NCBI RefSeq assembly: GCF_026870155.1
Contig: NZ_CP113975.1
Location: 1,488,001-1,552,000 of the forward strand
Source of the DNA: Flavobacterium marginilacus
Lineage (GTDB): Bacteria; Bacteroidota; Bacteroidia; Flavobacteriales; Flavobacteriaceae
Direction of reading: 5' to 3'
DNA: 64,000 nucleotides
The translations under genes were made by a program, and so were the position numbers. Within the stretch, counting starts at the first letter, position 1; every line of letters starts with the position of its first letter. The notes beneath the pieces are model-generated. The model had not been told where the DNA came from. It saw only the letters and a program-made list of their open reading frames with translations, and ran no database searches. Positions 20,004 to 35,656 of the stretch are shown here, one piece after another.

Positions 20004-22016
20004 TTATTCCTGATTCAAATTTCTCAATTGTTTTAGTTTTTCTTTCCAGACATCAAGGCTTTCTTTGTGAATAGCTATGTTTTTTCGAACCTCTAATACT
20101 ATTGAATTTTCTTTTTTTGAATTTTTTGTATTTGCAAAAAACTGAATGTTATTTTCTAATTGGAAAATTTCATTTTGTACTTCCTCGATTTTACGCATTA
20201 GGAAAATTTTCTCATTATCGAGTTTTCTGGTGTCGTTGCTTTCAGAAAGATTCTCCATTCTGTTGGAGAAACGCATGATTTCAGTATCTTTTTTGCTTAA
20301 GCTTAATTTTTCGAATAAAGCGTCAAGGATTTTGTTGAATTTTCCTTCGATATGTCTTCTTGGGAAAGGAACTTTACCAAAGTTTTTCCAAGTTTCGATA
20401 TGCAGTTTGATAGCGTCCAGATCGGTTTTGTGATCACCGGTCAATTGGAATTCTCTCAGTGTTTCCAAATAGGCTTTCTTTTTGTCAAAAGCTTCAACTT
20501 CGTCAGCGTTTTCAACGTTTTTATGTTCTTTTAGCTTGTCGAAATAATGGTTACATGCTTCTCTGAATTCATTCCAGATTTTATCTGAATATTTTCTAGG
20601 AACATGACCGATTTTTTTCCAGTCTTCCTGAATCTGCTTCATGATAGGAGTTGTGCTTGCAAAATCAACACTTTCCTGCAATTCTTTGGCTTTTTTAACC
20701 AAAGCTATTTTTTTATTCAGATTGTCGTTTTGGTCTTTTTTGATGTCTTTGTAGAAAGAATTTTTGAAACTGTTGAAATTTCTAACTGCAGTTTTAAAAG
20801 CAGCCCAAGTGGCTTCATTTACATCAGATGGAACTTTTCCGGCTGAGAAAAACTCAGAACGCAATGCTTCTACTTTTTCAATCTGTGCCAGCCATTGTGA
20901 ATGGGCATTCACTTTTTCGGTAGCTAAAACTTCAATTTTGGCAATGATTTCTTTTTTCTTTTCTAAGTTTTCAAGCTCAGTTCCTCTTAAGTTTTCAAAC
21001 AAAATTTCACGTTTGTCGTGCATTTTTTTTGTGAGTTCACTGAATTGGTTCCAGATTTCATCACGGTGTTCTCTAGAAACAGGACCAATATCTTCTTTCC
21101 AGATCCGGTGTAAATCCTGTAATTCTCTAAAAGCTTTATTGATATCTGCTTCTTTAAGCAGTTCTTCAACACGGGCAACAATTTTTTGTTTTTGTTCCAA
21201 ATTGTATTTGAAATCAATATCTCTTGCTTCTCTGTCTAAGTGCAGATAGTCATAAAAATTCTCAACATGAAAATGATAATTATTCCAAACGTGGTTGTAT
21301 TTGTCTTTTGGGATAGATCCTGCATTTTTCCAGCGGTCTCTTAACTCATTAAAATGATTTAAAGTGTCTTTGATGTTGGCCTGCGGATTGATTAATTCTT
21401 TTAATTCCTCTACAATAGCCAGTCGGACTTCCAAGTTGGATTTTAAATTGGATTGTAAGCTCTTGAAATGAGTATTTTTATTGTCTTTGTAAATCGTGTA
21501 ATATTGATCAAATTTTGATTTTAGTGGAAAATGATATTGAAATTCTTCATTAGGGTCTTGATTTTCCTGATTGAATTCTTCTCTTTTTTCTTCGATTAGA
21601 TGGTTGTATTTGGCCAAAAATGCTTTACGGATTTCCTCAACATGTTCTTTAATAGACATTACTTTTTCATTTGTAACTAAATTTTTCAATTCGTCTACAA
21701 GTTTGTCCATTGGCAATGCTTCATAATCCAGCATTGGTATGTCATGGCGTTCTTTTAACGTTTCATCTTCGCTTTCTTCAGCATTGGTCTCGGCAATAGC
21801 GTCAAGTACGTTTTGTTTTTCATCAGCTGTACTTTCACTTGATGTTACTGGCTCAGAAACTGGTTTTACAGTATTTTCCTCTGCCACAGCATCATTGATT
21901 TCATTTTCTGCATCCACAGAAACTTCTGATAGAACTGCTTCCTGCAATTCATTAGCTGTTTTTCCGTCTGTCTCATTTTCTTGAATTGACAGGTTATCGT
22001 TCTTTTCTTCTAACAT
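20004..22016 (-). CDS. DUF349 repeat protein
   Basis: A 670-residue, highly charged, largely helical protein. Residues 1 to about 90 are acidic and low in complexity. The rest holds at least five DUF349-type repeats, each with a W-x6-P core: RWKNAGSIPKDKY, IWKEDIGPVSREH, EFFSAGKVPSDVN, DWKKIGHVPRKYS and TWKNFGKVPFPRR. Each is followed by an aromatic-rich helix (WNNYHF, WNQFSE and so on). The family is common in Bacteroidota and its role is not established here. It lies next to the tracrRNA gene but is a housekeeping-type gene, transcribed in the same direction as the tracrRNA and away from cas9. Confidence 0.85.
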   Translation of the reverse strand: MLEEKNDNLSIQENETDGKTANELQEAVLSEVSVDAENEINDAVAEENTVKPVSEPVTSSESTADEKQNVLDAIAETNAEESEDETLKERHDIPMLDYEALPMDKLVDELKNLVTNEKVMSIKEHVEEIRKAFLAKYNHLIEEKREEFNQENQDPNEEFQYHFPLKSKFDQYYTIYKDNKNTHFKSLQSNLKSNLEVRLAIVEELKELINPQANIKDTLNHFNELRDRWKNAGSIPKDKYNHVWNNYHFHVENFYDYLHLDREARDIDFKYNLEQKQKIVARVEELLKEADINKAFRELQDLHRIWKEDIGPVSREHRDEIWNQFSELTKKMHDKREILFENLRGTELENLEKKKEIIAKIEVLATEKVNAHSQWLAQIEKVEALRSEFFSAGKVPSDVNEATWAAFKTAVRNFNSFKNSFYKDIKKDQNDNLNKKIALVKKAKELQESVDFASTTPIMKQIQEDWKKIGHVPRKYSDKIWNEFREACNHYFDKLKEHKNVENADEVEAFDKKKAYLETLREFQLTGDHKTDLDAIKLHIETWKNFGKVPFPRRHIEGKFNKILDALFEKLSLSKKDTEIMRFSNRMENLSESNDTRKLDNEKIFLMRKIEEVQNEIFQLENNIQFFANTKNSKKENSIVLEVRKNIAIHKESLDVWKEKLKQLRNLNQE

Positions 22017-22222
22017 TTTTGTGAATGTTTAAGGTTTTTATTTTTTGAATGCGAAAGATACTAAAGGTGCGCCACAATACAAAATAAAACTTCGGTTTAT
22101 AGCTTTTTTGCTAGGAAAAATAGCTCAATTTATTTGAGGGTAGAATGCTTTATAGTTTTGCTGAGGTGTTTTTTTGAATTTTTGAAGAAAGTAAGGAATG
22201 TGTAAGTATTTGAATTGTTTCG

Positions 22223-22311
22223 AAAAAAAAGTCCCACCGAAGCAGGACTAAAGACGAATCTACGGCATATAGCCTTATTGTGATAAGATTAAAGATTAGA
22301 ATTGTTTTAAT
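22223..22311 (-). ncRNA. tracrRNA of the type II-C CRISPR system
   Basis: Transcribed on the minus strand, divergent from cas9. The anti-repeat (22277-22301) pairs with plus-strand repeat RNA: 8 bp including two G-U pairs, a 2x2 U-U internal loop, then 15 bp. Next comes a nexus-like hairpin GGC-TATAT-GCC (within 22263-22276), a linker, and a terminator stem AGTCCTGC-TTCG-GTGGGACT followed by eight T. On the plus strand the same hairpin has no T run, so the strand is clear. The predicted length is about 89 nt. The 5' end is inferred from a promoter-like element. Confidence 0.88.
22231..22250 (-). terminator. tracrRNA intrinsic terminator
   Basis: An 8-bp stem with a TTCG tetraloop, read on the minus strand, followed directly by eight T (22230-22223). 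It also forms the last hairpin of the tracrRNA. Confidence 0.85.
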
Positions 22312-22317
22312 CTGTTG

Positions 22318-22348
22318 TAAATGTATGTAAAAAAGAATTATAAGGCAA
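22318..22348 (-). promoter_or_regulatory. Putative tracrRNA promoter
   Basis: On the minus strand TTG (22348-22346) is followed after 20 bases by TACATTTA (22325-22318), one mismatch from TAnnTTTG. Transcription would start near 22311, just before the anti-repeat. Confidence 0.4.
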
Positions 22349-22414
22349 TGAGGAAAACCGTAAATAGATTAAATTTTTTTATAGTAAATTCCGTGCAGAT
22401 TAAATTTAAGAAAT

Positions 22415-25400
22415 ATGGCAAAGATTTTAGGATTAGATTTAGGGACGAATTCGATTGGGTGGGCGATTGTGGATGATATTAATAATAAAATAATTGATTC
22501 TGGAGTAAGAATTTTTCCTGAAGGAGTTGTTGCAAAAACAATTGGACAGGGAGAAAAAGAAGAAAGTAAAAATGCAAGTAGAAGAAATAGCAGACAACAG
22601 AGACGTGGTTTTTATCGAAAAAGATTACGTAAAATTAAATTATTAAGAACGCTTATTAATTTAGAGATGTGTCCTTTATCGCATTCAGAACTTGATGTTT
22701 GGAGTAAATGGGATAAACAAAAAAAGAAAGAAGGGAGAATGGCTCCTGAAATCTATTTACCAGAAAATCATCCTTATTGTCTATGGTTGAAACAAAACCC
22801 ATATTTGTTAAGGGATAAAGCTCTAAATGAGGATTTAACTCTTCAGGAATTTGGCAGAGTGTTGTATCATTTAATTCAAAGAAGAGGTTTTTTGAGCAAC
22901 CGTAAAGGAAAAGATGATGGAAAAATTTATAAGGGAAAAGATGGTGTAAAAGGTATTGAGGACACTCAAAAAGAATTACAAAATTCAACGTTGGGAAAAT
23001 ATTTGTTCGATATTTTGCCAAAAGATGGAGAACCTTTTAAAGTAATTCAAGATGAAAATGGAAATGAATTGCGGGTTCGTTCAAGATATACTTTGAGAGA
23101 TATGTATGTAGCCGAATTTGAAGCAATATGGAATAGACAAGCTATTAATTTGGGGCTTGATACTATTGAATATACTAATGAGAAAAAGATATTGTTGAAG
23201 GGAGGTCTAAAAAATAAAAGAAACAACAGTAAGATTGGGCATTTAAAAAAGATTAAAGGAGCAGAAAATGTAGAAGTTATCGAATTGATTGATGAATTAT
23301 CGACTAATGATAAGCAAAAGTATTTGTTAAAAATTAAAGCTAAACTTCCTTTAAAAGAATTTTTGGCAGGGAAAATTGAAAAAAATGAGGAGGGAGATTT
23401 GAAATTTAAAAGTAATGAAAGTGTTTTGTTTTGGCAAAGACCCTTGCGTTCTCAAAAAGGACTTCTAGCTAAATGCAGGTTTGAACCCGATTTGAAAGAC
23501 GAAAATGGTAAATTCATACAAAAGGGTAAAACACCTTGCCATTTATCACATCCTTTGTATGAAGAGTATCGAGCTTTGCAATACATCAATAATATTGAAT
23601 ATGGTAAAAAGCAACGATTGGAAGAATCACAGCGTTTGCAAGTGTTAGAATTAATCAACTCTAAAGACAAGAAATTTGATTTTATCGAAATAAAAAAGAA
23701 ATTGAAATTAGAGTATGAAACATTTAATTATGCAGACGATTTTCCAGTTGTAGGGAATTATACAACAAAACATCTAAATTCATTATTTCCAAAAGCAATA
23801 CTTGACAAAGAATATATAATAACGGTTAATGAGCAAGAGACAATAGAATATGGTTATGAGCGTATTTGGCATTTGCTTCATTATTGTGATGATAATGATT
23901 TGTTGCTTGATAAACTTCAGGATAGTTATGGATTGTCTGAAGCTGAAAAAGAAAAGGTTTCTAAAATAAATTTAAAAGAAGATTATTCCAATGTTTCCCT
24001 TAAAGCTATAAAAAACATTTTGCCTTATCTCAAAAAAGGATTGCATTTAAGTGATGCTGTTATTTTGGGTGGTGTTAGAAATGCTTTTGGCAAAAAATGG
24101 GAGCTATATAAAAATGACCATATCGAATTAGAAAAAGATTTGTTGAAAATAAATCACGAAAAGTCCAATAAAGAAGGGGAAGCTATTGAAAAAATTAAAG
24201 TCTATTTAATCGAAAATAAATATGGATTTGTTGCGAATGATATTCGATTTAAAAAAATGTATCATCATAGTCAAGAGGTCCTTAAAGTAGAAGAAAAAGA
24301 TAAAATAGATACTGTCCAAAATTTGAGAAATCCAATTGTTCAACAAGGAGTTAATGAAACAAGACGACTAGTCAATGAATTGATTGCTCAACAAGGAAAG
24401 TTTGATCAAATTAGAGTTGAACTCGGTCGAGATTTAAAAAATAGTAAAACCAAACGTGAAGAATTAGGATACAAAATAAGAGAAAACGATAAGAAAAATG
24501 AAAAAGCAAAAGAATTATTGATTGAATTTGGTTTACGACAAAGTAGAGAAAACATCCAAAAAGTATTGTTGTATCAAGAAATGCCAATTTCTGTTTGCCC
24601 TTATACCAATAAGACGATAAATATTTCAGATGTGTTAGGTAAGGGAAATAAATTTCAAATCGAGCATATCATTCCAAAATCAATTTCTTTGGACGATAGT
24701 TTTGCAAATAAAACATTGTGTGATTCAAAATTTAATGGTTTAAAAGGAAATAGAACGCCTCACGATTTTTATGAAATCAATAAAGATCCAAATCTTTGGG
24801 GAGGTGCTAAATCGTGGGAAGAAATCGAGCGACGTGCTTTTAAAGTTTTACCCTATCCAAAAGCAAAACGATTTGTATCGAAAACAAAATTTGAAACCAA
24901 TGATTTTATACAACGTCAATTAAACGACACTCGTTATATAAGCAAGAAAACAAGTGAAATTCTTTCGCAAGTGTGTTCAGATGTTCGCGTGATGCCAGGA
25001 AGTTTAACTGCGGAATTGAGACGACTTTGGGGCTTGAATAATATTTTGCAACCCATTATGACGGTGGATATTCCAAATTTACACATTGAAGAAAACAAGC
25101 ACATACCTCATTATGTTGTTTTAGACAATGATAAAAAACCTATTTTGTCACAACGAATTTATTTTGATAAACCAACCACAAAAGAAAATGAAACACTTTT
25201 GTCTGGAAGTATTGAAAAAGGAGTTTTCAAATCTAAAGAGCAGTATGTCAAATTTCAAGTAGATGTGCCAGATTTAGCAAATGGCGATTATTGGGCAAAA
25301 TTAGTTTTGTCCAATCCAAAAAACATTGTTCAAGTATTTAAGGATAAACCAAACACTTTAGAAAATGAAATAGTTTTAAGAGGTAAGATTGAAAAGGAAA

Positions 25401-27103
25401 AATTCAAGAATGATGGATTGAATGCTATAAATGTAAATATTAAAGAAAACGGAACTTATTGGACTACTTTTTCTATTGTTAAAAAAGATTTTATAAAACC
25501 TACTAAAGAAGACCAACCCAAGAAAAACGGAAAACAAATTTTACTTTTTGGGGAAGTAAAAGACGGTCTTTTTTCCTCGTACATTTATGACTGTGAAGCA
25601 GAAATTGAAGACGGGAAATATTGGCTCATTATAGATGTAGATTTTGAAAAGGTTACTTTTGAAAAAGCTTTAAACGAAAAACCGCAGGTAAGAGAAAATC
25701 AAATTTTGATTCAAGGTACTACAAATGATGAAAATATATTTGTTTCGGATATGGACAATCAGCATCATTTTGAAATGGAGGAAGGCAAAGGGAAATATTA
25801 TGTATTATTTGATATTGTTTCTGAAGTAACGGAATTTTCACCTGTTAAAACCGCTTTGCCAGTCCTTGAGGAAGGTCAAACATTAGTTGAAGGAACAACT
25901 TGGGTTGATAAATATACAGGTGAAATAAAATTTGATCCTATCAAAAACCGAGAAGACCACCGCCATCACGCCATTGATGCTTTAGTTATTGCCTTAACGA
26001 AAGAATCCTTTTTTCAGCGGTTAAGCAAACAAAATGCTTCAACTGAAAACAAGAAAAGAGGGAATGAACACGAAAAAGAACATTTAGATTTTCCAGAACC
26101 TTGGAATGGTTTTCATTCCGATGCTAAAAATGTTATCAATAGTATTCTCATTTCGCATAAACAAAACAAAAACATCCTTACAAAAATAACCAAGAAGATT
26201 ACCAAAAACGGACAGACTTTTAAAAGTGAGGGAATGGCTGTTAGAGGGCAGTTGCATTTTAAATCTATTTATGGCAAAAATAAAAATTGTAATAAGGATG
26301 AATTTGTCCGTAGGGTAGATATTAATAGTTTAAGTTTTTCTCAGCTTACTAATGTTTTAGATAATAATTTGAGAAAGGTAATAATTGAAGAAATAGTAAA
26401 AAAAATGAGTGATGAAGAAACTCAATTTTTTAACAAAATGATTTCAAAAGAGAAAAACCTTAATAAAACTAAACAAAAACAGGTTAAGGATAAAGTTGAT
26501 AAAATTTTAAAAAACACTTCTTTTTTTATGCCAAACATAGGAAATAGATACAAACGATTAAATAAGATTGAAAAGGATGATTTTATTAGAACTCCTGTCC
26601 CTATTAAAAAAGTTAGAGTAAAAAGCGTTTTAGGAAATGCAGAAAGTGTAAACGCAAAAATTAAACAATTTGTTGATCCACAAAACAATCATCATATTGT
26701 AATCTATAAAGATGAAAATGATGAGTTAAAAAATGACATTACTAATTTTTGGAATGTTGTAGAAAGAGTAAAACAAAAAGATGAAATCTATAAACTACCT
26801 CATTTAGAAATTGGGAAACCAGCCCCCAAAGAACTGGTATTAACTTTTCAGGAAAATGATATGTTTTTGTTGGGTCTTTCTAATGATGAGTATAATGATA
26901 ATAAAGAAAGTAATGCTTTTTTAAGTAATTATTTGTATCGAGTTCAGAATATTTCAGATGGTGATTATACTTTTAGACACCATTTTGCATCATCGGTAAC
27001 TAATAAAAATGAAGGTATTAGAATAGCAAGTATGAAAAAGTATCAAGAAATGAATCCAATAAAAGTAAAGGTTTCAGTTTTAGGGAAAATTTCAAAAATA
27101 TAA
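22415..27103 (+). CDS. cas9: Cas9, type II-C, with a large repeat insert in RuvC-III
   Basis: RNA-guided DNA endonuclease of 1562 residues. RuvC-I has Asp8 (GLDLGTNSIGW), followed by an Arg-rich bridge helix (about 50-80). RuvC-II has Glu669 (VELGRD). The HNH domain has IEHIIP with His751 and Asn774. RuvC-III begins with the helix ELRRLWGLNNIL (to 878) and resumes at DHRHHAIDA, with His1185 and Asp1188. All catalytic positions are kept. Between these two parts lie about 270 extra residues in tandem units of about 57 (see findings). The C-terminus would be the PAM-interacting region. No csn2 or cas4 is nearby, so type II-C is the best class. Confidence 0.97.
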   Translation: MAKILGLDLGTNSIGWAIVDDINNKIIDSGVRIFPEGVVAKTIGQGEKEESKNASRRNSRQQRRGFYRKRLRKIKLLRTLINLEMCPLSHSELDVWSKWDKQKKKEGRMAPEIYLPENHPYCLWLKQNPYLLRDKALNEDLTLQEFGRVLYHLIQRRGFLSNRKGKDDGKIYKGKDGVKGIEDTQKELQNSTLGKYLFDILPKDGEPFKVIQDENGNELRVRSRYTLRDMYVAEFEAIWNRQAINLGLDTIEYTNEKKILLKGGLKNKRNNSKIGHLKKIKGAENVEVIELIDELSTNDKQKYLLKIKAKLPLKEFLAGKIEKNEEGDLKFKSNESVLFWQRPLRSQKGLLAKCRFEPDLKDENGKFIQKGKTPCHLSHPLYEEYRALQYINNIEYGKKQRLEESQRLQVLELINSKDKKFDFIEIKKKLKLEYETFNYADDFPVVGNYTTKHLNSLFPKAILDKEYIITVNEQETIEYGYERIWHLLHYCDDNDLLLDKLQDSYGLSEAEKEKVSKINLKEDYSNVSLKAIKNILPYLKKGLHLSDAVILGGVRNAFGKKWELYKNDHIELEKDLLKINHEKSNKEGEAIEKIKVYLIENKYGFVANDIRFKKMYHHSQEVLKVEEKDKIDTVQNLRNPIVQQGVNETRRLVNELIAQQGKFDQIRVELGRDLKNSKTKREELGYKIRENDKKNEKAKELLIEFGLRQSRENIQKVLLYQEMPISVCPYTNKTINISDVLGKGNKFQIEHIIPKSISLDDSFANKTLCDSKFNGLKGNRTPHDFYEINKDPNLWGGAKSWEEIERRAFKVLPYPKAKRFVSKTKFETNDFIQRQLNDTRYISKKTSEILSQVCSDVRVMPGSLTAELRRLWGLNNILQPIMTVDIPNLHIEENKHIPHYVVLDNDKKPILSQRIYFDKPTTKENETLLSGSIEKGVFKSKEQYVKFQVDVPDLANGDYWAKLVLSNPKNIVQVFKDKPNTLENEIVLRGKIEKEKFKNDGLNAINVNIKENGTYWTTFSIVKKDFIKPTKEDQPKKNGKQILLFGEVKDGLFSSYIYDCEAEIEDGKYWLIIDVDFEKVTFEKALNEKPQVRENQILIQGTTNDENIFVSDMDNQHHFEMEEGKGKYYVLFDIVSEVTEFSPVKTALPVLEEGQTLVEGTTWVDKYTGEIKFDPIKNREDHRHHAIDALVIALTKESFFQRLSKQNASTENKKRGNEHEKEHLDFPEPWNGFHSDAKNVINSILISHKQNKNILTKITKKITKNGQTFKSEGMAVRGQLHFKSIYGKNKNCNKDEFVRRVDINSLSFSQLTNVLDNNLRKVIIEEIVKKMSDEETQFFNKMISKEKNLNKTKQKQVKDKVDKILKNTSFFMPNIGNRYKRLNKIEKDDFIRTPVPIKKVRVKSVLGNAESVNAKIKQFVDPQNNHHIVIYKDENDELKNDITNFWNVVERVKQKDEIYKLPHLEIGKPAPKELVLTFQENDMFLLGLSNDEYNDNKESNAFLSNYLYRVQNISDGDYTFRHHFASSVTNKNEGIRIASMKKYQEMNPIKVKVSVLGKISKI
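25127..25930 (+). repeat. Tandem protein repeats inside Cas9 RuvC-III
   Basis: This segment codes for Cas9 residues about 905-1172. Four units start at residues 924, 983, 1038 and 1094, and a fifth partial one at 1152. Each begins like ENExLLxG, and the first four carry a G-x-Y-W/Y pattern about 28 residues later (Y959, Y1015, Y1069, Y1128). The units have diverged strongly at DNA level, so the expansion is old. The composition suggests small beta-sheet modules. Confidence 0.8.
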
Positions 27104-27120
27104 TTTTATTTCGAAAGTTT

Positions 27121-27136
27121 GGTGTAAATTTACACC
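27121..27136. promoter_or_regulatory. Palindromic operator of the toxin-antitoxin pair
   Basis: GGTGTAAATTTACACC is a perfect 16-bp palindrome, 18 bases after the cas9 stop and 16 bases before the antitoxin ATG. Ribbon-helix-helix antitoxins typically bind such sites to repress their own operon. Confidence 0.7.
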
Positions 27137-27152
27137 ACTAAATAGTTTGATT

Positions 27153-27395
27153 ATGTCAAGACAAAGTATCACATTAGCCAATCAAAATGATGAGTGGTTA
27201 AAAGAGCAAGTGGCTAAAGAGGAATTTACCAGTAAAAGTGAAGCGGTTAATTATTTAATTAAGCAAGCACGAGAACGTGATGAATATGTAGAATTTGTTC
27301 GAATGAAGTTAGATAAAGCTGAGAAAAGTGGATTTGCTAAAAAGCAAACAAGAGAAGAAATGTTGGCAGAATTCAAAAAGAAATTAAATGTATAG
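27153..27395 (+). CDS. ParD-like ribbon-helix-helix antitoxin
   Basis: An 80-residue protein starting MSRQSITLANQNDEWLKEQV, the beta strand and first helix of a ParD-type ribbon-helix-helix DNA-binding domain. Next come SKSEAVNYLIKQARERD and a Lys/Glu-rich C-terminal helix that would wrap the toxin. I chose the ATG at 27153 over an upstream in-frame TTG (27147). The palindrome just upstream is a likely autoregulatory site. Its stop overlaps the toxin start by 8 bases, indicating translational coupling. It sits between cas9 and the CRISPR array. Confidence 0.88.
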   Translation: MSRQSITLANQNDEWLKEQVAKEEFTSKSEAVNYLIKQARERDEYVEFVRMKLDKAEKSGFAKKQTREEMLAEFKKKLNV

Positions 27396-27663
27396 CTATC
27401 ATTTAAATGAATTAGCCAAAGAAGATTTATTAAGAATATACGAATATGGAATAGCAAAATTTGGTTTAAATCAGGCAGATAAGTATTTTGATATGATGCA
27501 AGACTGTTTTGATAAAATCGCTTCAAATCCGTTTTTGTTTCCAAATGCAATTCGTTACCGAGAAGGTTACAGATATTGTGTTTGTGGTGTGGATACCATT
27601 TTTTATAAAATCAACGGTAATGAAGTAGAAATAATGGCAATCATTGGCAGGCAAAATTTTTAA
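27388..27663 (+). CDS. ParE/RelE superfamily toxin
   Basis: A 91-residue protein of the ParE/RelE toxin fold: MYSYHLNELAKEDLLRIYEY, then a helix pair (QADKYFDMMQDCFDKIASNP), then a beta-rich end (YRYCVCGVDTIFYKINGNE, EIMAIIGRQNF). The late Gly-Arg-Gln is typical of ParE proteins. ParE toxins poison gyrase and RelE toxins cut mRNA; the ParD partner favours ParE. It overlaps the antitoxin by 8 bases and ends 94 bases before the first CRISPR repeat. Confidence 0.88.
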   Translation: MYSYHLNELAKEDLLRIYEYGIAKFGLNQADKYFDMMQDCFDKIASNPFLFPNAIRYREGYRYCVCGVDTIFYKINGNEVEIMAIIGRQNF

Positions 27664-27757
27664 GAAGTTCTTTGACATAAGTTTTTCAAGGTCTTAAACA
27701 TCTCAAACCACAACTGAAAGTTATGGCGTCTGCCAAGCAGGGACGCGAGAACTTTCA
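27664..27757 (+). promoter_or_regulatory. CRISPR leader with long hairpin
   Basis: The 94 bases between the toxin gene and the first repeat are the likely leader, since tracrRNA pairing fixes transcription as left to right. CAAACCACAACTGAAAGTT (27704-27722) is perfectly complementary to 27750-27768, whose last 11 bases belong to repeat 1. An inner stem GCGTCTGC-CAA-GCA-gg-GACGC lies inside. A clear promoter was not found, though TAAGTTTT (27678-27685) is one mismatch from a -7 box. Confidence 0.65.
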
Positions 27758-29895
27758 GTTGTGGTTTGATTAAAGATTAGAAAACACGATATTGTATCAA
27801 ATGTTTTGTCAATCAATCGTTTTGTTGTGGTTTGATTAAAGATTAGAAAACACGATATTAATTATTAGTTGATGATATTAAAGTGGAAGTTGTGGTTTGA
27901 TTAAAGATTAGAAAACACGATATTCTTAACACATCATACATATCTGATTTGCTTGTTGTGGTTTGATTAAAGATTAGAAAACACGATATTTTAATACATC
28001 ATACATATCAGATTTACTTGTTGTGGTTTGATTAAAGATTAGAAAACACGATATTTAATTCGTTAGTGGTGACACTACGATTTAGTTGTGGTTTGATTAA
28101 AGATTAGAAAACACGATATTAATCCTGTATTATTAATTAACTGTATTAATGTTGTGGTTTGATTAAAGATTAGAAAACACGATATTATAAGATACTTTAT
28201 AAGATAATGCCTTATGTTGTGGTTTGATTAAAGATTAGAAAACACGATATTTGTTCTTGATAAAATCTTTCAAGTTCATTAGTTGTGGTTTGATTAAAGA
28301 TTAGAAAACACGATATTTTTATAATAAAACGCTAGTAGCCCAAGGCTGTTGTGGTTTGATTAAAGATTAGAAAACACGATATTCCTGATTTAGTTTGATA
28401 TTCTGCTATTTGTGTTGTGGTTTGATTAAAGATTAGAAAACACGATATTTTTTCCGTATTGTTCCAGCCTTTTATTGTCGTTGTGGTTTGATTAAAGATT
28501 AGAAAACACGATATTCAATGTGGTTGGATTTTCAAGATGTTAATGTTGTGGTTTGATTAAAGATTAGAAAACACGATATTGTGAACATAATCACATTGAA
28601 CAAAATCTCCGTTGTGGTTTGATTAAAGATTAGAAAACACGATATTAATATCATACTTCATTTGTGCGCCGACATAGTTGTGGTTTGATTAAAGATTAGA
28701 AAACACGATATTTGTTGAATAAATACTATTTGCCGAATAATGTTGTGGTTTGATTAAAGATTAGAAAACACGATATTCTAAATAGGAATTGAAGTTTAGG
28801 ATATATTGTTGTGGTTTGATTAAAGATTAGAAAACACGATATTTAAATCGACTGTAAAACTCACTAAACTCTGTTGTGGTTTGATTAAAGATTAGAAAAC
28901 ACGATATTTATTCAAAAGAAATTATAGACAGAAAATTTGTTGTGGTTTGATTAAAGATTAGAAAACACGATATTTGGAAGCGCAATCCCTGTTCAATCTT
29001 CTTGTTGTGGTTTGATTAAAGATTAGAAAACACGATATTTAGACTTAACCGAAAATAATTTTGTGTCAGTTGTGGTTTGATTAAAGATTAGAAAACACGA
29101 TATTTTTGCTCCTATAGTCTTTGGCTGTATGATAGTTGTGGTTTGATTAAAGATTAGAAAACACGATATTCTTTCTGTTAAAAGTTCAGATATTCTGCCC
29201 GTTGTGGTTTGATTAAAGATTAGAAAACACGATATTAATTCTGTTGCCGGTGGTACAAATGGTTTGGTTGTGGTTTGATTAAAGATTAGAAAACACGATA
29301 TTTCCCAAGCTATTTGTGCAATGGTTCTGTCTGTTGTGGTTTGATTAAAGATTAGAAAACACGATATTAATTTTTGAAAAGTAGATTGACCTAAATCTGT
29401 TGTGGTTTGATTAAAGATTAGAAAACACGATATTTTCGGACATGAATAAGTTTCGCCCTGGAATGTTGTGGTTTGATTAAAGATTAGAAAACACGATATT
29501 AACACTTTGCGAACAAATGCCTCTGTTAGTGTTGTGGTTTGATTAAAGATTAGAAAACACGATATTGAATTGATTGCTTTAGAGCGAGCAGGAAATGTTG
29601 TGGTTTGATTAAAGATTAGAAAACACGATATTATGTGAAGCTCTCACGCGTTCGTCCTGAGCGTTGTGGTTTGATTAAAGATTAGAAAACACGATATTTA
29701 TACCAAAGCGGCTCATGCTATTGCACCAGTTGTGGTTTGATTAAAGATTAGAAAACACGATATTTGCATTATAAAAATTCGTGAGTCATAAACTGTTGTG
29801 GTTTGATTAAAGATTAGAAAACACGATATTCACAAACCAACTTATATGAAGAATCAATCGTTGTGGTTTGATTAAAGATTAGAAAACACGATATT
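27758..29895 (+). CRISPR. CRISPR array, 33 repeats and 32 spacers
   Basis: The 36-bp repeat begins GTTGTGGTTTGATTAAAG and ends AAAACACGATATT. By hand count it starts at 27758, 27824, 27889, 27955 and so on to 29860, giving 33 copies; no degenerate copy was noticed. Spacers are 29 or 30 bp (ten intervals of 65, the rest 66). In crRNA each spacer is followed by GUUGUG, which pairs with the tracrRNA anti-repeat. Spacers 3 and 4 are near-duplicates. An intact last repeat is unusual, since leader-distal repeats often decay. Spacer targets cannot be identified here. Confidence 0.99.
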
Positions 29896-29950
29896 AGTTG
29901 GTTTGTTTCCTTTTGATAATCATGTGATTAAATTGAAATATCGTATAATA

Positions 29951-29997
29951 AAATGCTTCTTTTTTGGATTGATAACCCAGGATTGAAGCATTTTTTT
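29951..29997 (+). terminator. Terminator downstream of the CRISPR array
   Basis: AAATGCTTC (29951-29959) pairs with GAAGCATTT (29985-29993), followed by a T run on the plus strand. It fits termination of a left-to-right pre-crRNA. Confidence 0.75.
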
Positions 29998-30057
29998 ATT
30001 TGTAATAATTTGGATTTCAATATTTTTATAATGAGAATTATAGTTGGATTCGGTGAA

Positions 30058-30078
30058 GGGACAGGTCGCGACCTGCCC
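30058..30078. repeat. REP-like palindrome upstream of the transposase gene
   Basis: GGGACAGGTCGCGACCTGCC plus one C is a near-perfect palindrome, followed by a half copy CCTGTCCGTA at about 30089-30098. Two more copies and a half copy lie inside the adjacent transposase gene. Confidence 0.75.
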
Positions 30079-30143
30079 GTAAGAGTGGCCTGTCCGTATT
30101 TGTGGTGGCATGAAGATTGTTGTAATGTATAAATAGATTGTTT

Positions 30144-30758
30144 ATGAAAAATAGAAAAAGAAATAGAATGCAAGGATTTGATTATTCCACTGATAATTTA
30201 TATTTCGTTACGATTTGTGTTAAGGATAGGGTCTGTTGTTTGGGGGTGGTGGTTGATGTAGGGACAGGTCGCGACCTGTCCGTACGGGATATCGATGAAT
30301 TGAATATTATAATGAATTCGGATGAATTTATAAAAAAGATGGAATTAAATGAATTCGGGAAAATTGTAAAGAATCAGATAGAATGGCTGGCCGAGCAATA
30401 TAAATATGTTGATGTCCATAATTTTGTGATAATGCCCAATCATGTTCATATGGTTATTGAAATTGATAAAAAGAAATTGACGGTAGGGACAGGTCGCGAT
30501 AAAATAAAGGAAGGGACAGCTCGCAAGCTGTCCGTACAGGATAATGAAATAAAAATAAAATCATTGTCAAGTTTGATTGGTGCCTTTAAAACAACATCGT
30601 CAAAAATGATGCATCATGCTGGTTTTGCAGATTTTGCCTGGCAAAGATCTTTTCATGATCACATTATTCGAAATGAGAGATCTTATCAAAATATAAGTAA
30701 TTACATTGATTTGAATCCTGAAAAATGGATGGCAGATACTTTTTTTGAGAAGCATTAA
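30144..30758 (+). CDS. REP-associated tyrosine (Y1/HUH) transposase
   Basis: A 204-residue single-strand transposase of the RAYT/IS200-like group. The motifs are YFVTICVKDR near the start, the metal-binding NHVHMVI (HUH) in the middle, and the nucleophile region SYQNISNYIDLNPEKW near the end. RAYTs act on short palindromic repeats. Palindromic repeats are inserted in frame within this gene, adding VGTGRDLSVRD (residues 39-49) and a related stretch at residues 114-133. The start is taken at ATG 30144; an in-frame TTG lies two codons upstream. It lies between the array and cas2, and its stop overlaps the cas2 stop by 4 bases. Confidence 0.85.
   Translation: MKNRKRNRMQGFDYSTDNLYFVTICVKDRVCCLGVVVDVGTGRDLSVRDIDELNIIMNSDEFIKKMELNEFGKIVKNQIEWLAEQYKYVDVHNFVIMPNHVHMVIEIDKKKLTVGTGRDKIKEGTARKLSVQDNEIKIKSLSSLIGAFKTTSSKMMHHAGFADFAWQRSFHDHIIRNERSYQNISNYIDLNPEKWMADTFFEKH
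30261..30281. repeat. REP-like palindrome inside the transposase gene, copy 1
   Basis: GGGACAGGTCGCGACCTGTC plus one C contains a perfect 20-bp palindrome. It is in frame and encodes GTGRDLS within VGTGRDLSVRD (residues 39-49). Confidence 0.8.
30486..30533. repeat. REP-like palindromes inside the transposase gene, copies 2 and 3
   Basis: A half copy GGGACAGGTCGCGA (30486-30499) is followed by a variant full copy (30513-30533), GGGACAGCT-CGCA-AGCTGTCC. In the variant both arms changed together, so pairing was kept. Both are in frame and encode GTGRD and GTARKLS. Confidence 0.8.
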
Positions 30759-31084
30759 AACAATTCCAATTGTGTGGGCTGAGGTTCTTTGGGAATTTCG
30801 GCTTTGCCCCAAAAATTCTGGATATTGCCAAATTGCTTATCGGTAATTCGTAAAACACTCACTTTTCCTAAAGGAGGTAAAAGTTTGTGAATGCGTTTTT
30901 CATGTACATCGGCACTTTCACTGCTGGCACAATGACGGACATACACAGAATATTGCATCATGGAGAATCCATCTTTTAAAAGATTATTCCTAAATCCAGA
31001 AGCATTCCTACGGTCTTTTTTGGTTTCCGTAGGTAAATCAAAAAATACGAACAGCCACATTATTCGGTATCCGTTGAGTTCCAT
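30755..31084 (-). CDS. cas2: CRISPR adaptation nuclease-like subunit Cas2
   Basis: A 109-residue Cas2 of the type II kind. The N-terminus YRIMWLFVFFDLPTET matches the ferredoxin-like strand with its catalytic-type Asp16. FSMMQYSVYVRHC and VSVLRITDKQFGNI follow, as in Cas2 proteins. With Cas1 it forms the integrase that adds new spacers. The start at 31084 is inside the cas1 frame (25-base overlap), indicating coupling. It is transcribed toward the array, opposite to cas9. Confidence 0.95.
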   Translation of the reverse strand: MELNGYRIMWLFVFFDLPTETKKDRRNASGFRNNLLKDGFSMMQYSVYVRHCASSESADVHEKRIHKLLPPLGKVSVLRITDKQFGNIQNFWGKAEIPKEPQPTQLELF

Positions 31085-31974
31085 AATTTAGGATATTTTA
31101 TTTTTTTTCTGTTGCCCGTAAAACATTGCTGTAAGGAACTGGCTGTTTTTTGCAATCCAACCATTAAAGGGCTTTTCTCTTCTTTGAAATAAACTGTCCG
31201 TGTAAGAATCTGCAATAGTTCGGATTTAAGTAAAGTGTTTAATTCCTGTTCATCATAGCACTGCATGATTTGGAACACTTTTTCGTCTACTATTGGCCTA
31301 AAGGGCTCCATAATATCATCTGCCAGAGCAAAGGCATTGTATTTGCTTTTATGGTGAATGCCGAGCGTGTTGAGCAGGCCGCTTCCTGAAACCGCTCTTG
31401 CAGTGGCCGCTCTCAATATGGCGTAACCATAATTTAGAAAATTGTTAGGGTAATCTCCAAAGCGTTCTCTTTTGATGCTTTCTTTTTCCTGATTTGGAAA
31501 TGGAAAATATTTCCAATAATGCTGAGCAGCAACTCCTTCCATATTACTGGTGTCACCACTCAAAACTTTGGTGGCCAGATAATCAAATTGATTTTTATTT
31601 TTGGTTAATCTTTCCAGTAATTCTCCTTGATTTTTTATTTTTTCGATTATGGTCTGCTGCCACAATTGTTTTTTTAGAGGAACAGTAGCTTCGATTTGAT
31701 TTTTGAATATTTCCTGCTGTATATGATGGCTGTTGAGGTTCAGGAACATGCCATTGGGCAAGTGATTATTGGAACAGATAATGACGGCTGTATTGTTTTC
31801 AATCATCAGGTTCATAGCTGGAATACTCAAATAAATTTCAGGATTGTCAAGAACAAGAAACCCTATATCTTCTATTGGAACTGAACTTTCTCTTACTTCA
31901 GATTTAATAATCAGCTGCAGATTTTTGGTGCTGATTGAAGATTTGTTTTCGACAAGAATAGTTCTTTTTAGCAT
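31060..31974 (-). CDS. cas1: CRISPR integrase Cas1
   Basis: A 304-residue type II Cas1. It carries the catalytic metal-binding residues Glu146 (SNMEGVAAQHYW), His207/His208 (GIHHKSKYNAF) and Asp220/Glu223 (ADDIMEPFRP). With Cas2 it inserts spacers at the leader end of the array. It starts the minus-strand cas1-cas2 pair and lies just downstream of aroE and its hairpin. The adaptation genes are thus separated from cas9 by the toxin-antitoxin pair, the array and the transposase gene. Confidence 0.97.
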   Translation of the reverse strand: MLKRTILVENKSSISTKNLQLIIKSEVRESSVPIEDIGFLVLDNPEIYLSIPAMNLMIENNTAVIICSNNHLPNGMFLNLNSHHIQQEIFKNQIEATVPLKKQLWQQTIIEKIKNQGELLERLTKNKNQFDYLATKVLSGDTSNMEGVAAQHYWKYFPFPNQEKESIKRERFGDYPNNFLNYGYAILRAATARAVSGSGLLNTLGIHHKSKYNAFALADDIMEPFRPIVDEKVFQIMQCYDEQELNTLLKSELLQILTRTVYFKEEKSPLMVGLQKTASSLQQCFTGNRKKIKYPKLWNSTDTE

Positions 31975-32090
31975 GATTTTAATTTTTTAAATTAAATACC
32001 TAAAATATTCACATAAATTAACGGAGTTTTTAAATGACTGTATTACGGTAAACCGTAAATGAAGAGATTCAGAGGTAATGTTTTTACGCA

Positions 32091-32127
32091 CAAAGCCCTC
32101 AAAAGGAAAATCCTTCTGAGGGCTTTG
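32091..32127 (-). terminator. Hairpin downstream of aroE
   Basis: CAAAGCCCTCA (32091-32101) and TGAGGGCTTTG (32117-32127) form an 11-bp stem 27 bases after the aroE stop. A further TTACGG-TAAA-CCGTAA hairpin lies at 32043-32058. These should separate aroE from cas1. The T run is weak. Confidence 0.6.
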
Positions 32128-32153
32128 AGGTATTGTGTTTAAAAAGTATTTTT

Positions 32154-32903
32154 CTATTTATTCCATATCTTCCAGGCTTTTTCTGCTTGAAAAATAAGCA
32201 TGTCCAAACCATTTTTAATCTGTGCGCCCTGAGCTTTTGCTTTACTTAGAAATTGTGTTTCAGCAGGATTGTAAATCAAATCGTAGGCAATATGTTTCTC
32301 TGTGAAGTATTCGTAGGGAATAAGCGGAAATAAATCCACATTTGGACTTGTTCCTACTGGAGTACAGTTGATGATAATCTGGTAGTTATCAAACGTAGTA
32401 GCATTGATAAGGCTGTAATCGATACAGTTTTCTTTGTCCCCGCGGGAAACAAATGTATAAGTGATATCCAATTGGTCTAAAGCAAAGGCAACTCCTTTTG
32501 AAGCGCCGCCGGTTCCCAGAATCAATGCTTTTTTGTGATGTGGCTGTAATAATGGTTCAAGAGATTTTTGGAAACCGTAATAATCGGTGTTGTAGCCTTT
32601 TAATTTTCCTTTTTTGGTAAATTTTATGGTGTTTACAGCCCCAATTTCGACTGCGTTTTTAGATAATTTGTCTAAAAAAGGAATCACGGATTCTTTATAA
32701 GGAATAGTGACATTCAATCCGTTAAGGTTATTGTTGTTTTTTATTAATTCGGTAAACTCATTGATTTCCTGTATGTCAAAATTTTCATAGGTACAGCCTT
32801 CAAAATGTTCCTTGCTGAATTTTTCTGTAAAATATCCTTTTGAAAAGGAATAGCTGATATTGCGGCCTAATAAACCAAATCGTCTCCTTAAAACTTCAGT
32901 CAT
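32154..32903 (-). CDS. aroE: Shikimate dehydrogenase
   Basis: NADPH-dependent reduction of 3-dehydroshikimate to shikimate in aromatic amino acid synthesis. Substrate-binding motifs are GRNISYSFSKGYF and NGLNVTIPYKES with the catalytic Lys, then NTDYYGF with the partner Asp. The nucleotide-binding loop is GTGGASKGVAFAL. The protein is 249 residues, slightly short for the family but complete. Its start overlaps the stop of the TPR gene by one base, so the two are co-transcribed. Confidence 0.93.
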   Translation of the reverse strand: MTEVLRRRFGLLGRNISYSFSKGYFTEKFSKEHFEGCTYENFDIQEINEFTELIKNNNNLNGLNVTIPYKESVIPFLDKLSKNAVEIGAVNTIKFTKKGKLKGYNTDYYGFQKSLEPLLQPHHKKALILGTGGASKGVAFALDQLDITYTFVSRGDKENCIDYSLINATTFDNYQIIINCTPVGTSPNVDLFPLIPYEYFTEKHIAYDLIYNPAETQFLSKAKAQGAQIKNGLDMLIFQAEKAWKIWNK

Positions 32904-34300
32904 TATTGTTTTTTATGTTTGTCAATATAATTTCGTACCATTTTTTTCTCCCAAACCACAGGGAATAAATCTTCTAACAGGATGTAATTGTCATAATTCA
33001 GACGCAAAGCATTACTTAAATGAAATTTAGCTTTGATATTGTCTGAAAGCATAAAATACAATCCAGCCAAACGGTATTCGACTTCGTTTTCTTCAGGAAA
33101 ATATTCTGAAGCCTGCAGTAATGTTTGTATTGCACTTTCAAATTCTCCTAAAAACTGTAAAATGTCAACCCAAAACAGCCAAGTGTCGAGCTGATAATCT
33201 CCAAATTCTACTGCTTTTCGATAACCAAATTCAGCTTCTTCAAAAAAGTTCATCTGCTTGTTGATAGCAGCAAAACGTTTCCAGTATAATTTGTTCTGAT
33301 TATCAATTGCTAATGCTTTATTGACAAAAAATAATGCTTTTTGGAAGTTTTTCTGGCGTACATAAAAATCAGTAATGGCAATCCAGCCTTTGTCTAAAAG
33401 AGGATCTTCATGTACAGTTTTGTTATAATATTTCAAGGCTAGAACTTTATTGCCTAATTTTTCATAACATTTTCCTATTCGGAGTAATGCGTATGAAGTG
33501 GCATCGTCCAGTTCCAATGTTCTGTTGTAGCTTTCAATGGCTTCTTCATATTTCTTTAGACGTTCCAGCGCTTTTGCTTTTTCCATAAAAGCACCTAGAA
33601 ATTCTTCATCAATAAGAGTTGCATATTCAAATGCATGAATAGCACTTTCATATTCCTTCACGCCATAAAACAAGCGGCCTAATTGATGCCAGGCAATCTC
33701 GCTGTAAGGATTTTTGTTGATGTATTTATTCAGATAGGCAATTGCTTCCTGATTTTGATCTAAAAATTCAAAACAATATACCACATTATATAATGCCGAT
33801 TGATCTTCAAAATCTTCTTCGAGACATTTAATGAAGCTGTCTTTGGCAAGTTCAAGATTATCCATAAAAAGATATTCCATTCCCATTAAGTTGTACACAT
33901 CGGCATAGTCATCTGTATATTTCAATGCTATTTTGAGCATTTCTACGGCTTTTTCATGCTGATCTCTTTTGGAACAGATATTGGCTTTCTGAATATAAAT
34001 TTCTTCGTTTGTTGGTTCGATAGCATACAGCTCATTCAATAGCTTTTCGGCCATTTCGAGTTTATCATCATAAATCAGCATTTCTACCTGGACTAATTTA
34101 AGGCCGCTGGATCTTGGGTGCTGTTCCAGTGCTAATTTTAAAGCTTTTTTGGCCAATGCAGACTTGCCCATATCGAGATAATGAAGAATGATTTCTTCAA
34201 ATTCTTCGGAGTCAAAAAAGAGCACTTTGTTGGTTTTCAACATAGACTCAAATTTGGATAGGGATAAGTTATAATCTTCTTCTTCGTTGCTTAATTGCAT
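32903..34300 (-). CDS. Tetratricopeptide repeat protein
   Basis: A 465-residue soluble protein built almost entirely of TPR-type helical hairpins. Examples are DVYNLMGMEYLFMDNLELAK, IAWHQLGRLFYGVKEYESA, YALLRIGKCYEKLGNKVLAL and VEYRLAGLYFMLSDNIKAK. About ten units can be counted, running from residue 40 to near the C-terminus. No signal peptide or enzymatic domain is seen. TPR arrays act as protein-binding scaffolds. It is translationally coupled to aroE, an arrangement I recall from other Flavobacteriia. Its partner is unknown. Confidence 0.88.
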   Translation of the reverse strand: MQLSNEEEDYNLSLSKFESMLKTNKVLFFDSEEFEEIILHYLDMGKSALAKKALKLALEQHPRSSGLKLVQVEMLIYDDKLEMAEKLLNELYAIEPTNEEIYIQKANICSKRDQHEKAVEMLKIALKYTDDYADVYNLMGMEYLFMDNLELAKDSFIKCLEEDFEDQSALYNVVYCFEFLDQNQEAIAYLNKYINKNPYSEIAWHQLGRLFYGVKEYESAIHAFEYATLIDEEFLGAFMEKAKALERLKKYEEAIESYNRTLELDDATSYALLRIGKCYEKLGNKVLALKYYNKTVHEDPLLDKGWIAITDFYVRQKNFQKALFFVNKALAIDNQNKLYWKRFAAINKQMNFFEEAEFGYRKAVEFGDYQLDTWLFWVDILQFLGEFESAIQTLLQASEYFPEENEVEYRLAGLYFMLSDNIKAKFHLSNALRLNYDNYILLEDLFPVVWEKKMVRNYIDKHKKQ

Positions 34301-34474
34301 ACTGTGTGTTTTTAAATTATCCTAAATTAAAATTAAGGAAACGTATTGTTGAAAAGAGGAAGAATTCTATTTGTTGTGAACAATTTAATTAACAGGTTTT
34401 CCAATGGCAATATCAAAAGTCAATGTCAAAAGTCAATGTCAAACCTTAAATATTTATTTTTTAAATCTAAATTC

Positions 34475-35656
34475 TTAAATCATCATTTCATTCATCACTT
34501 CAAGAATTATTGCACAGCCTTCTCGAATTTCTTCTTCGGAAATGGTCAGTGGCGGTGTTATTCGAATTGCGCATCCTTCAAAAAGAAGCCAAAATAGAAT
34601 CAAACCTCTGTCCTGACATTTTAATATCACTTCATTTGTGATGTCTGCACTCTCCGTCATGGCTGCAAGCATTAATCCTCTTCCTCTTATTTCTTTAATC
34701 AAAGGATGTACCAAAAGCTTTCTGAAGAGATTTTCTTTCTCTAAAGTATCTGTAATGATTGAGGTTTCAGTTAATTCTTTCAAAGTAGCCAGACATGCTG
34801 ACGCAATGACAGGATGACCTCCAAAGGTTGTAATGTGACCCAATTTCGGGTTTTCAGTCAATAAATCCATCATTGCCGATGAAGCGGTAAAAGCACCAAC
34901 TGGCATGCCGCCACCCATTCCTTTTCCCATTACCAGAATATCTGGAACGACATCATAGTTTTGAAATCCAAAAAGAGCACCTGTTCTGCCAAATCCCGGC
35001 TGGATTTCGTCTAATATCATTAAAGCCCCTACTTCTTCGCATCGCGCTTTTACTTTCTTTAAAAAATTATTATAAGGTTCAATAAAACCAGCTCCTCCCT
35101 GGATTGTTTCGAGTAAGATTCCCGCTGTTTTGTTGGTGATTTTCTGTAAATCGGCTTCATTATTGAATGTTATAAAATCGATGTCGGGAAGCAGTGGGCG
35201 AAAAGCCTGCTTGCGTTCTTCAAAGCCCATTACACTCATTGATCCCATGGTGTTGCCATGATAGGCATTATGACATGAAATGAGCTGGCTTCTTCCTGTT
35301 ACTCTTTTTGCAAGTTTTAATGCGCCTTCTATTGCTTCGGTTCCTGAGTTGACCAGATAAGTTTTGTCTAAAGGAGCAGGGAGGAGAGAGGCCATCAATT
35401 TGCAGTATTCTACTGCGGGACTTTGTGAATATTCGCCATAAACCATAACATGCGAATATTTATCCAACTGGTCTTTTATAGCGTCATTTACTCTTTTGTT
35501 CTGATGGCCAAGCGTACAGGCCGAAACTCCTGCTACAAAATCTAAATATTTTTTGTTACTAGTGTCATAAATATAGGAACCAATGGCATGTGATACTTCC
35601 ATACCCAATGGATATGGCGAAGTTTGTGCTTGGTATTTTATAAAATCCGGATTCAC
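34475..35656 (-). CDS. Class III PLP-dependent aminotransferase
   Basis: A 393-residue aminotransferase of the acetylornithine/GABA class. It has VNSGTEAIEGALKLAKR, the PLP-contacting AYHGNTMG, DEIQPGFGRTG with the ring-binding Asp, and VMGKGMGGGMPVGA with the Schiff-base lysine. The start MNPDFIKYQAQTSPYPLGME is typical of the flavobacterial enzyme annotated aspartate aminotransferase family. The substrate cannot be determined from sequence and no arginine genes adjoin. It follows the OstA-like gene with a 65-base gap. Confidence 0.87.
   Translation of the reverse strand: MNPDFIKYQAQTSPYPLGMEVSHAIGSYIYDTSNKKYLDFVAGVSACTLGHQNKRVNDAIKDQLDKYSHVMVYGEYSQSPAVEYCKLMASLLPAPLDKTYLVNSGTEAIEGALKLAKRVTGRSQLISCHNAYHGNTMGSMSVMGFEERKQAFRPLLPDIDFITFNNEADLQKITNKTAGILLETIQGGAGFIEPYNNFLKKVKARCEEVGALMILDEIQPGFGRTGALFGFQNYDVVPDILVMGKGMGGGMPVGAFTASSAMMDLLTENPKLGHITTFGGHPVIASACLATLKELTETSIITDTLEKENLFRKLLVHPLIKEIRGRGLMLAAMTESADITNEVILKCQDRGLILFWLLFEGCAIRITPPLTISEEEIREGCAIILEVMNEMMI

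Follow-up and report, generated by a model that had tools for sequence, protein, structure and literature searches.

Type II-C Cas9 proteins such as NmeCas9, GeoCas9 and the module-free enzymes of flavobacteria have the same RuvC/HNH core and domain order as the protein described here, and like it are accompanied by a trans-activating CRISPR RNA (tracrRNA) and by cas1-cas2. In these enzymes, the RuvC-III helix is joined to the helix carrying the H-H-A-x-D motif by a link of a few to 17 residues. The best-matching solved Cas9 chains, NmeCas9 (8ja0) and GeoCas9 (9ar4), have the same organization, with the W-G-L / W-N-F helix and the H-H-A helix lying within a few residues of each other. Here we analyze a 64,000-nucleotide stretch of the Flavobacterium marginilacus genome (contig NZ_CP113975.1, positions 1,488,001 to 1,552,000; hereafter the window), whose cas9 gene (22415..27103, + strand) encodes a 1562-residue type II Cas9 in which the same link reaches about 308 residues. 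We found no description of this insert in the open-licence literature.

The five-module insert in RuvC-III

The window Cas9 scores well over the TIGR01865 cut-off (496.5 bits against 100, E = 2.1e-148) and retains the catalytic residues Asp8, Glu669, His1185 and Asp1188 of RuvC and His751 and Asn774 of HNH; among 59 Cas9 sequences, E669, H751, N774, H1185 and D1188 are invariant and D8 is nearly so. A preliminary description of the window had reported an extra stretch of tandem repeats within RuvC-III. The stretch is real: 304 residues, about one-fifth of the protein, separate the upstream border, the RuvC-III helix ELRRLWGLNNIL (residues 867-878; 25013..25048, + strand), from the downstream border RHHAIDAL (residues 1183-1190; 25961..25984, + strand), which contains the catalytic His1185/Asp1188, and the insert makes the link about 293 residues longer than its module-free counterpart. 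When five units were cut four residues ahead of the starts first proposed (924, 983, 1038, 1094 and 1152), no more than 1.7% of 1000 shuffles attained the scores of eight of the ten unit pairs, and none attained those of pairs 1-2, 2-4 and 3-4, while pairs 2-5 and 3-5, which involve the short fifth unit, gave a null result against the same number of shuffles. Self-comparison of the DNA reveals a 65-nucleotide direct repeat, 72% identical, at 25166 and 25343. Hidden Markov models (HMMs) built for each position from about 100 homologues recover all other positions; at E < 1e-3, the module A profile retrieves B in 101/101 sequences, D in 95/101, C in 86/101 and E in 72/101, the weakest directions being B to E (10/101) and C to E (8/101).

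Repeats do begin at the proposed starts, but in a register shifted relative to complete modules. Taken from the G-x-Y-W strand, which is less exact in A and E, the register gives five complete modules, A to E, over residues 895-1176. The early count of four or five units thus becomes five, although the unit at 1152 is the first half of a module only and residues 895-923 are a second half preceding unit 1. The motif ENExxLxG attributed to the first four units is exact in two of them, unit 3 reading NGKQILLFG and unit 4 ENQILIQG. Module HMMs and hhalign windows delimit module A (residues 895-953; 25097..25273), for which windows starting at 880-898 reach probabilities of 88-93 against the one-module link described below, the slightly basic module B (954-1010; 25274..25444), with Y959-W960 invariant in 101 sequences, and module C (1011-1064; 25445..25606), with W1016 in 101/101 and C1060 in 99/101. 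Module D (1065-1122; 25607..25780) is strongly acidic, carries D1114 in 99/101 and is the weakest match to the one-module link (probability 24). The acidic module E (1123-1176; 25781..25942; all five on the + strand) matches it with a probability of 94.6 (E = 6.7e-8) and continues without a gap into KNREDHRHHAIDA through the junction K-N-R-E-D-H-RHHAIDA.

AlphaFold2 models of residues 855-1260 and 948-1126 (predicted local distance difference test scores of 85 and 92) consist of beta modules with no helix inside the insert, in agreement with the small beta modules first suggested. Their best structural likenesses, both weak, are to TOBE/MOP domains (PotA, MalK, ModE, ModG) and to RPB8, which weakly suggests an OB-like (oligonucleotide/oligosaccharide-binding) fold. 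Net charge is −14 for the insert of the window Cas9 and −7.4 on average, with module means of +0.8 (A), +3.2 (B), +2.6 (C), −7.9 (D) and −3.7 (E); the REC (recognition) and C-terminal parts of Cas9 are in contrast strongly positive. Sequence searches of the PDB returned nothing meaningful for either the insert or the one-module link, and profiles of the five-module and one-module links found no Cas9 there. For 39 inserts, Pfam yielded only weak matches among the best 25 of 34 families, the commonest, in 10/39, being to CcmE, an OB family, with a best E of 0.028, below cut-off. A weak Pfam match to DUF4382 at residues 643-711, in the RuvC-II region (E = 0.0035, below cut-off), is probably due to chance. 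About one-fifth of a well-studied enzyme is a domain array with only sub-threshold Pfam matches and no relative found among solved sequences. Used as a query, the insert retrieved 113 proteins, every one of which carries the Cas9 Pfam domains HNH_4 and RuvC_III. The whole-insert profile was also run against about 5.8 billion proteins of 0.55-1.75 times the query length, a range blind to a module inside a much longer or shorter protein, and returned five matches, all of them Cas9 fragments with the RuvC_III Pfam domain.

Distribution and history of the modules

Link classes were read by motif regular expressions from 297 Cas9 entries, 12 of which could not be parsed; the entries include the best 120 of 1097 matches and the best 80 of 588 loci from whole-protein alignment against named genomes. 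The 262 distinct links have three lengths: 15-17 residues with no module (n = 39), 70-95 residues with one module (n = 54) and 290-344 residues with five (n = 169, of which 162 fall between 300 and 312). No link of intermediate length, from 95 to 290 residues, occurs among the 262, and comparison of copy number thus gives 0, 1 or 5 rather than a continuum; rare Cas9s with two, three or four modules may exist, given that only the best matches and loci were covered. With 39 links devoid of modules and 54 containing one, the insert is not a standard part of II-C Cas9s, and the module-free link, which the preliminary description gave as a few tens of residues, is shorter than that. As it had supposed, the insert is common to many long flavobacterial Cas9s, and it extends beyond them. 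The five-module class is found in Flavobacterium, Halpernia, Gelidibacter, Bizionia, Odoribacter and Carboxylicivirga, in many metagenome-assembled genomes (MAGs) of Bacteroidales and relatives, in Pontiella and in a Neomarinimicrobiota MAG, the last two of which lie outside the phylum of F. marginilacus. It is nevertheless uncommon in the genomes sampled: own genome included, the whole insert was matched in 3/299 genomes of the genus and in 2/395 of the phylum. Apart from two matches outside Cas9, considered below, the remaining ones in these genomes cover the RuvC motifs on either side of the insert, in other frames of Cas9 size (one of 649 residues). Three long frames (G269, G562 and G666) show no recognizable module in a link of about 40-50 residues, and genome G019, of the phylum, encodes a Cas9 of another family in a 1498-residue frame whose corresponding site holds one module (G-L-Y-W-A-Y-V ...; L100, G019:C32:25500-32000). 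Two module matches outside Cas9, over the 3′ ends of L11-methyltransferase-like open reading frames (ORFs) in G152 and G326, share little beyond a T-L-x-L-S-G-x-x-E-like stretch and were judged to be chance.

Links of the 70-95-residue class mostly read D-G-E-Y-x-A-A ... G-x-V-x-x-G-x-V-K-x-G-x-F-Y-P-x-K-x-R-D-D-H-R-H-H-A, which corresponds to one whole module in the register of the G-x-Y-W strand. A profile of 53 such links aligned to the pooled modules with an hhalign probability of 94.6 (E = 7.1e-8), and to single modules with probabilities of 87 (A), 85 (B), 89 (C), 40 (E) and 18 (D). Sliding 60-residue windows along the five-module alignment gave peaks of 93 (A), 90 (B), 90 (C) and 95 (E) in matching register; control windows elsewhere in Cas9 (n = 53) did not exceed 1.5. 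Single-sequence HMM matches are weak: the pooled profile placed one-module links at ranks 1, 2, 3 and 5 among six links and 1200 shuffles (E at least 0.15), and with single-position profiles shuffles ranked first every time. The kinship claim consequently rests on profile-profile comparison, by which the one-module link is homologous to modules A-E.

In a tree built from the Cas9 core, from which the link had been cut out, the five-module rows form one side of a branch (SH-like approximate likelihood ratio test, 98), their nearest neighbors being the one-module pair L048 and P0150. One-module sequences do not form a single group, and three changes account for all states. This is a quick tree, computed without a mixture model, midpoint-rooted and retaining 101 of 271 rows after thinning. 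The simplest history, on what is in effect an unrooted tree, would comprise the acquisition of a single module, one multiplication to five and a loss to zero.

The five modules have since kept their places. The order A-B-C-D-E was recovered in 179/185 scanned inserts, a set that includes duplicates between collections and was scored with module HMMs sharing sequences with the architectures. The exceptions are P0169 and L036, of a basal lineage (B-B-C-D-E), P0074 (A-B-B-C-D-E, with a short added module), P0110 (A-B-B-D-E) and two divergent inserts with four modules above the threshold, P0173 (A-B-D-E) and P0186 (A-B-B-D). P0110 and P0074 are related Cas9s whose links of 290 and 344 residues are one module apart, the only clear case in which a unit was recently gained or lost; the C region is missing from P0110, where a B/C-like stretch joins D. 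In 33 sampled genes, the nearest neighbor of 164/165 modules is the module at the same position of another gene, mean identity being 48% for modules at the same position of different genes and 22% for the modules within a gene. The copies thus predate the radiation of the group and have mostly not been homogenized since; with each position specialized, the insert is a fixed arm rather than a drifting repeat array. Inserts as little as about 33% identical to that of the window Cas9 still keep its length and the order of its modules.

Five-module enzymes also differ in REC1. Between RRGF and QRPLRSQ, this segment has 143-274 residues in the 153 five-module Cas9s measured, 98-107 in the 32 with one module and 101-116 in the 38 with none; the measure missed 32, 25 and 5 entries of these classes, respectively, and seven without a link. 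It reaches 274 residues in some relatives, for example P0015 and P0017. In the window Cas9, the extension amounts to about 60 residues (about 248-307; 23156..23335, + strand) facing a gap in a module-free Cas9 from a genome labelled as the same species. L036, the first branch of the five-module group, has an unenlarged REC1 of about 118 residues, which indicates that the modules came first.

Possible roles of the arm

According to an excerpt of PMC5680257, substitutions K974A and R976A of SpCas9 affect only cleavage of the non-target strand. Aligned by motif, the site of the insert corresponds to the SpCas9 loop in which K974 and R976 precede H982/H983 by a few residues. We tentatively propose, at chances that we put somewhat short of even, that the arm is an intramolecular brace or guide rail on the RuvC/non-target-strand side and is not needed for the guide scaffold. 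An ancestral Cas9 would have carried one module of about 57 residues, predicted to be OB-like, in the short loop between the RuvC-III helix and H-H-A-x-D; in one descendant group this module would have multiplied to five copies, each then specializing, with as outcome a five-module arm of fixed length, both ends in the RuvC core, beside the active site for non-target-strand cleavage. The arm would lean on adjacent regions of Cas9, of which the REC lobe is the likeliest, REC1 having enlarged after the modules multiplied, and would thereby shape how or when the displaced non-target strand arrives at RuvC. An intramolecular role is favored because the insert is net acidic, no neighboring gene beyond cas1/cas2 is general to the 44 loci compared and REC1 is longer in enzymes with five modules.

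That the guide scaffold does not require the arm is suggested by a natural swap. Genome G202, labelled as the same species, encodes a module-free 1127-residue Cas9 at the same locus (L095 3299-6682). The two genomes are 94.8% identical in the upstream intergenic region, 98.7% in the transposase, 100% in cas2 and 99.8% in cas1 (480 bases compared), and the loci diverge only within cas9, between about 22455 and 27079, where the Cas9 domains share 35-51% identity, RuvC-I 69%. Their repeat consensus is identical, their spacers (32 and 45) have no exact match in common, and 79/85 aligned tracrRNA columns are identical, including the whole anti-repeat; the difference lies in a short stretch outside the anti-repeat, stem and terminator. 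If both loci are active, the arm is required neither for this repeat and tracrRNA nor for this cas1-cas2. In-situ exchange of cas9 in Flavobacteriales has already been published, according to the legend of Extended Data Fig. 9 of PMC12669027.

Several observations weigh against a brace or guide rail. Module-free relatives, which have no arm, persist; the predicted template modelling score of 0.63 leaves the mutual arrangement of the modules uncertain; the models span residues 855-1260 and 948-1126 only; and the module D window resembles the one-module link only weakly. Furthermore, the enlargement of REC1 may be a coincidence since it represents one or two evolutionary events and not 153, and the long yet one-module Cas9 of G019 indicates that the number of modules does not closely follow protein size. 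A further-reaching version, in which an internal rail of five OB-like domains would take over handling of the displaced strand (holding it, routing it or timing the cut), is possible if rather on the unlikely side; to our knowledge, no Cas9 domain is known to have such a function.

We consider it unlikely that the modules are OB-type single-strand binders acting on the displaced non-target strand as the OB domains of SSB or RPA would. The weak likeness to OB-type folds, the recurrence of CcmE among sub-threshold matches, the location of the site on the non-target-strand side and the neutral to slightly basic charge of modules A-C, with K/R at 919, 978 and 994 in at least 96/101 sequences, all point in that direction, but the net negative charge of the insert weakens the general DNA or RNA binding raised in the preliminary description. 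Quite unlikely, in our view, is a docking platform for a helper, for Cas1-Cas2 or for a host factor, or a shield against inhibitors. Module-specific invariant residues suggest specific faces, and PcrIIC1 provides a precedent for a helper of a II-C Cas9 (PMC12669027, in excerpt). Partner binding, also raised early, finds one candidate in cis, a 217-residue protein family encoded a few hundred bases 3′ of cas9 in 4/44 five-module loci and 0/36 others. However, beyond cas1 and cas2 no gene family is general around the 44 loci, whose contigs often end early; this includes any pcrIIC1 neighbor, although no search was aimed at PcrIIC1, and the same cas1-cas2 stands beside the module-free Cas9 of G202. 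It is improbable that the arm is a tolerated decoration or spacer with no selected function, as the persistence of zero-, one- and five-module enzymes and the lower conservation of the insert (mean column entropy of 1.73 against 1.02 for HNH) could suggest: its length and order are maintained to low identity, the modules have near-invariant Y/W/G/F/D positions, and recombination would be expected to add units to, or remove them from, a neutral repeat array. Finally, that the arm reads an unusual guide-RNA scaffold is highly improbable, for although large Cas9 insertions sometimes contact RNA, the module-free Cas9 of G202 stands with an identical repeat consensus and a near-identical tracrRNA.

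Whether or not the arm braces or guides within Cas9, a natural five-module insertion that spares the catalytic residues is a precedent for where Cas9 tolerates insertions. The series of zero, one and five modules, together with the swap in G202, also offers a natural comparison of an insertion in the RuvC non-target-strand loop with respect to cleavage, specificity and spacer acquisition.

The CRISPR locus and comparison with characterized Cas9s

The locus contains cas9, cas1, cas2, a tracrRNA and an array, as in subtype II-C. The tracrRNA (22223..22304, − strand) comprises an anti-repeat, a stem and a terminator hairpin with a T-run, its duplex with the repeat reaching −28.4 kcal/mol; no Rfam family matched the region. 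The array (27758..29895, + strand) has 33 repeats of 36 nucleotides (counted by an exact 25-mer) and spacers of 29-30 nucleotides, none of which, for the window genome or G202, matched phage records searched for comparison of protospacer adjacent motifs. Between cas9 and the array lies a ParD/ParE-type toxin-antitoxin pair (27147..27663, + strand; ParE_toxin E = 1.1e-9, ParD below cut-off), nearly unchanged in G202. Between the array and cas2, a REP-associated / IS200-like tyrosine transposase gene (30138..30758, + strand; Y1_Tnp over cut-off, REP-associated family below) is accompanied by palindromic AGGGACAGGTCGCGACCTG-type repeats (30057-30758). cas2 (30755..31084, − strand) and cas1, of the type II family TIGR03639 (31060..31974, − strand), face the array from the opposite strand. 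No cas4 family match was found in the whole genome (the control matched in 8/14 genomes); csn2 gave none either, but its control matched in no genome and absence is not established. Neither gene was recognized by eye among the ORFs of 20004-34500.

Around the 44 five-module loci, examined with 6-kb flanks where the contig allowed, cas1 was found in 30 and cas2 in 28. Also recurrent are array-derived or antisense ORFs, transposases (eight loci), an ABC-type ATPase (three) and clusters of short ORFs (three to four). Members of the 217-residue family lie at 11236-11886 in L022, 11168-11818 in L041, 5793-6446 in L026 and 4479-5132 in L032; the two compared with Pfam gave nothing above cut-off. At the one-module locus of Gracilimonas, cas9 is separated from a presumed cas1 by two small ORFs of 91 and 158 residues (L050 9600-10338).

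Among characterized proteins, the best PDB sequence match of the whole window Cas9 is CbCas9 (8iyq, 1442 residues), which is likewise long and is the PcrIIC1-associated enzyme of Chryseobacterium. No part of it matched the insert: residues 710-881 of the window Cas9 pair with 799-985 of CbCas9 and 1176-1343 with 1025-1229, so that its own link is about 40 residues. Fp2Cas9 of Flavobacterium psychrophilum (1548 residues; PMC12609912, in excerpt) is a characterized long flavobacterial Cas9, which we considered as a five-module member and dropped on HNH numbering, its E868 corresponding to E750 of the window Cas9. This position suggests that Fp2Cas9 belongs to another long lineage, and the excerpt makes no mention of modules. 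Closer in this respect are the one-module Cas9s, among them those of a Gracilimonas MAG (L050), of Halocola ammonii (P0136) and P0150, which carry a homologous module at the same site and share with the five-module enzyme the junction K-x-R-(D/E)-D-H-R-H-H-A, differing from it by their single copy and, in the 32 measured, by an unenlarged REC1.
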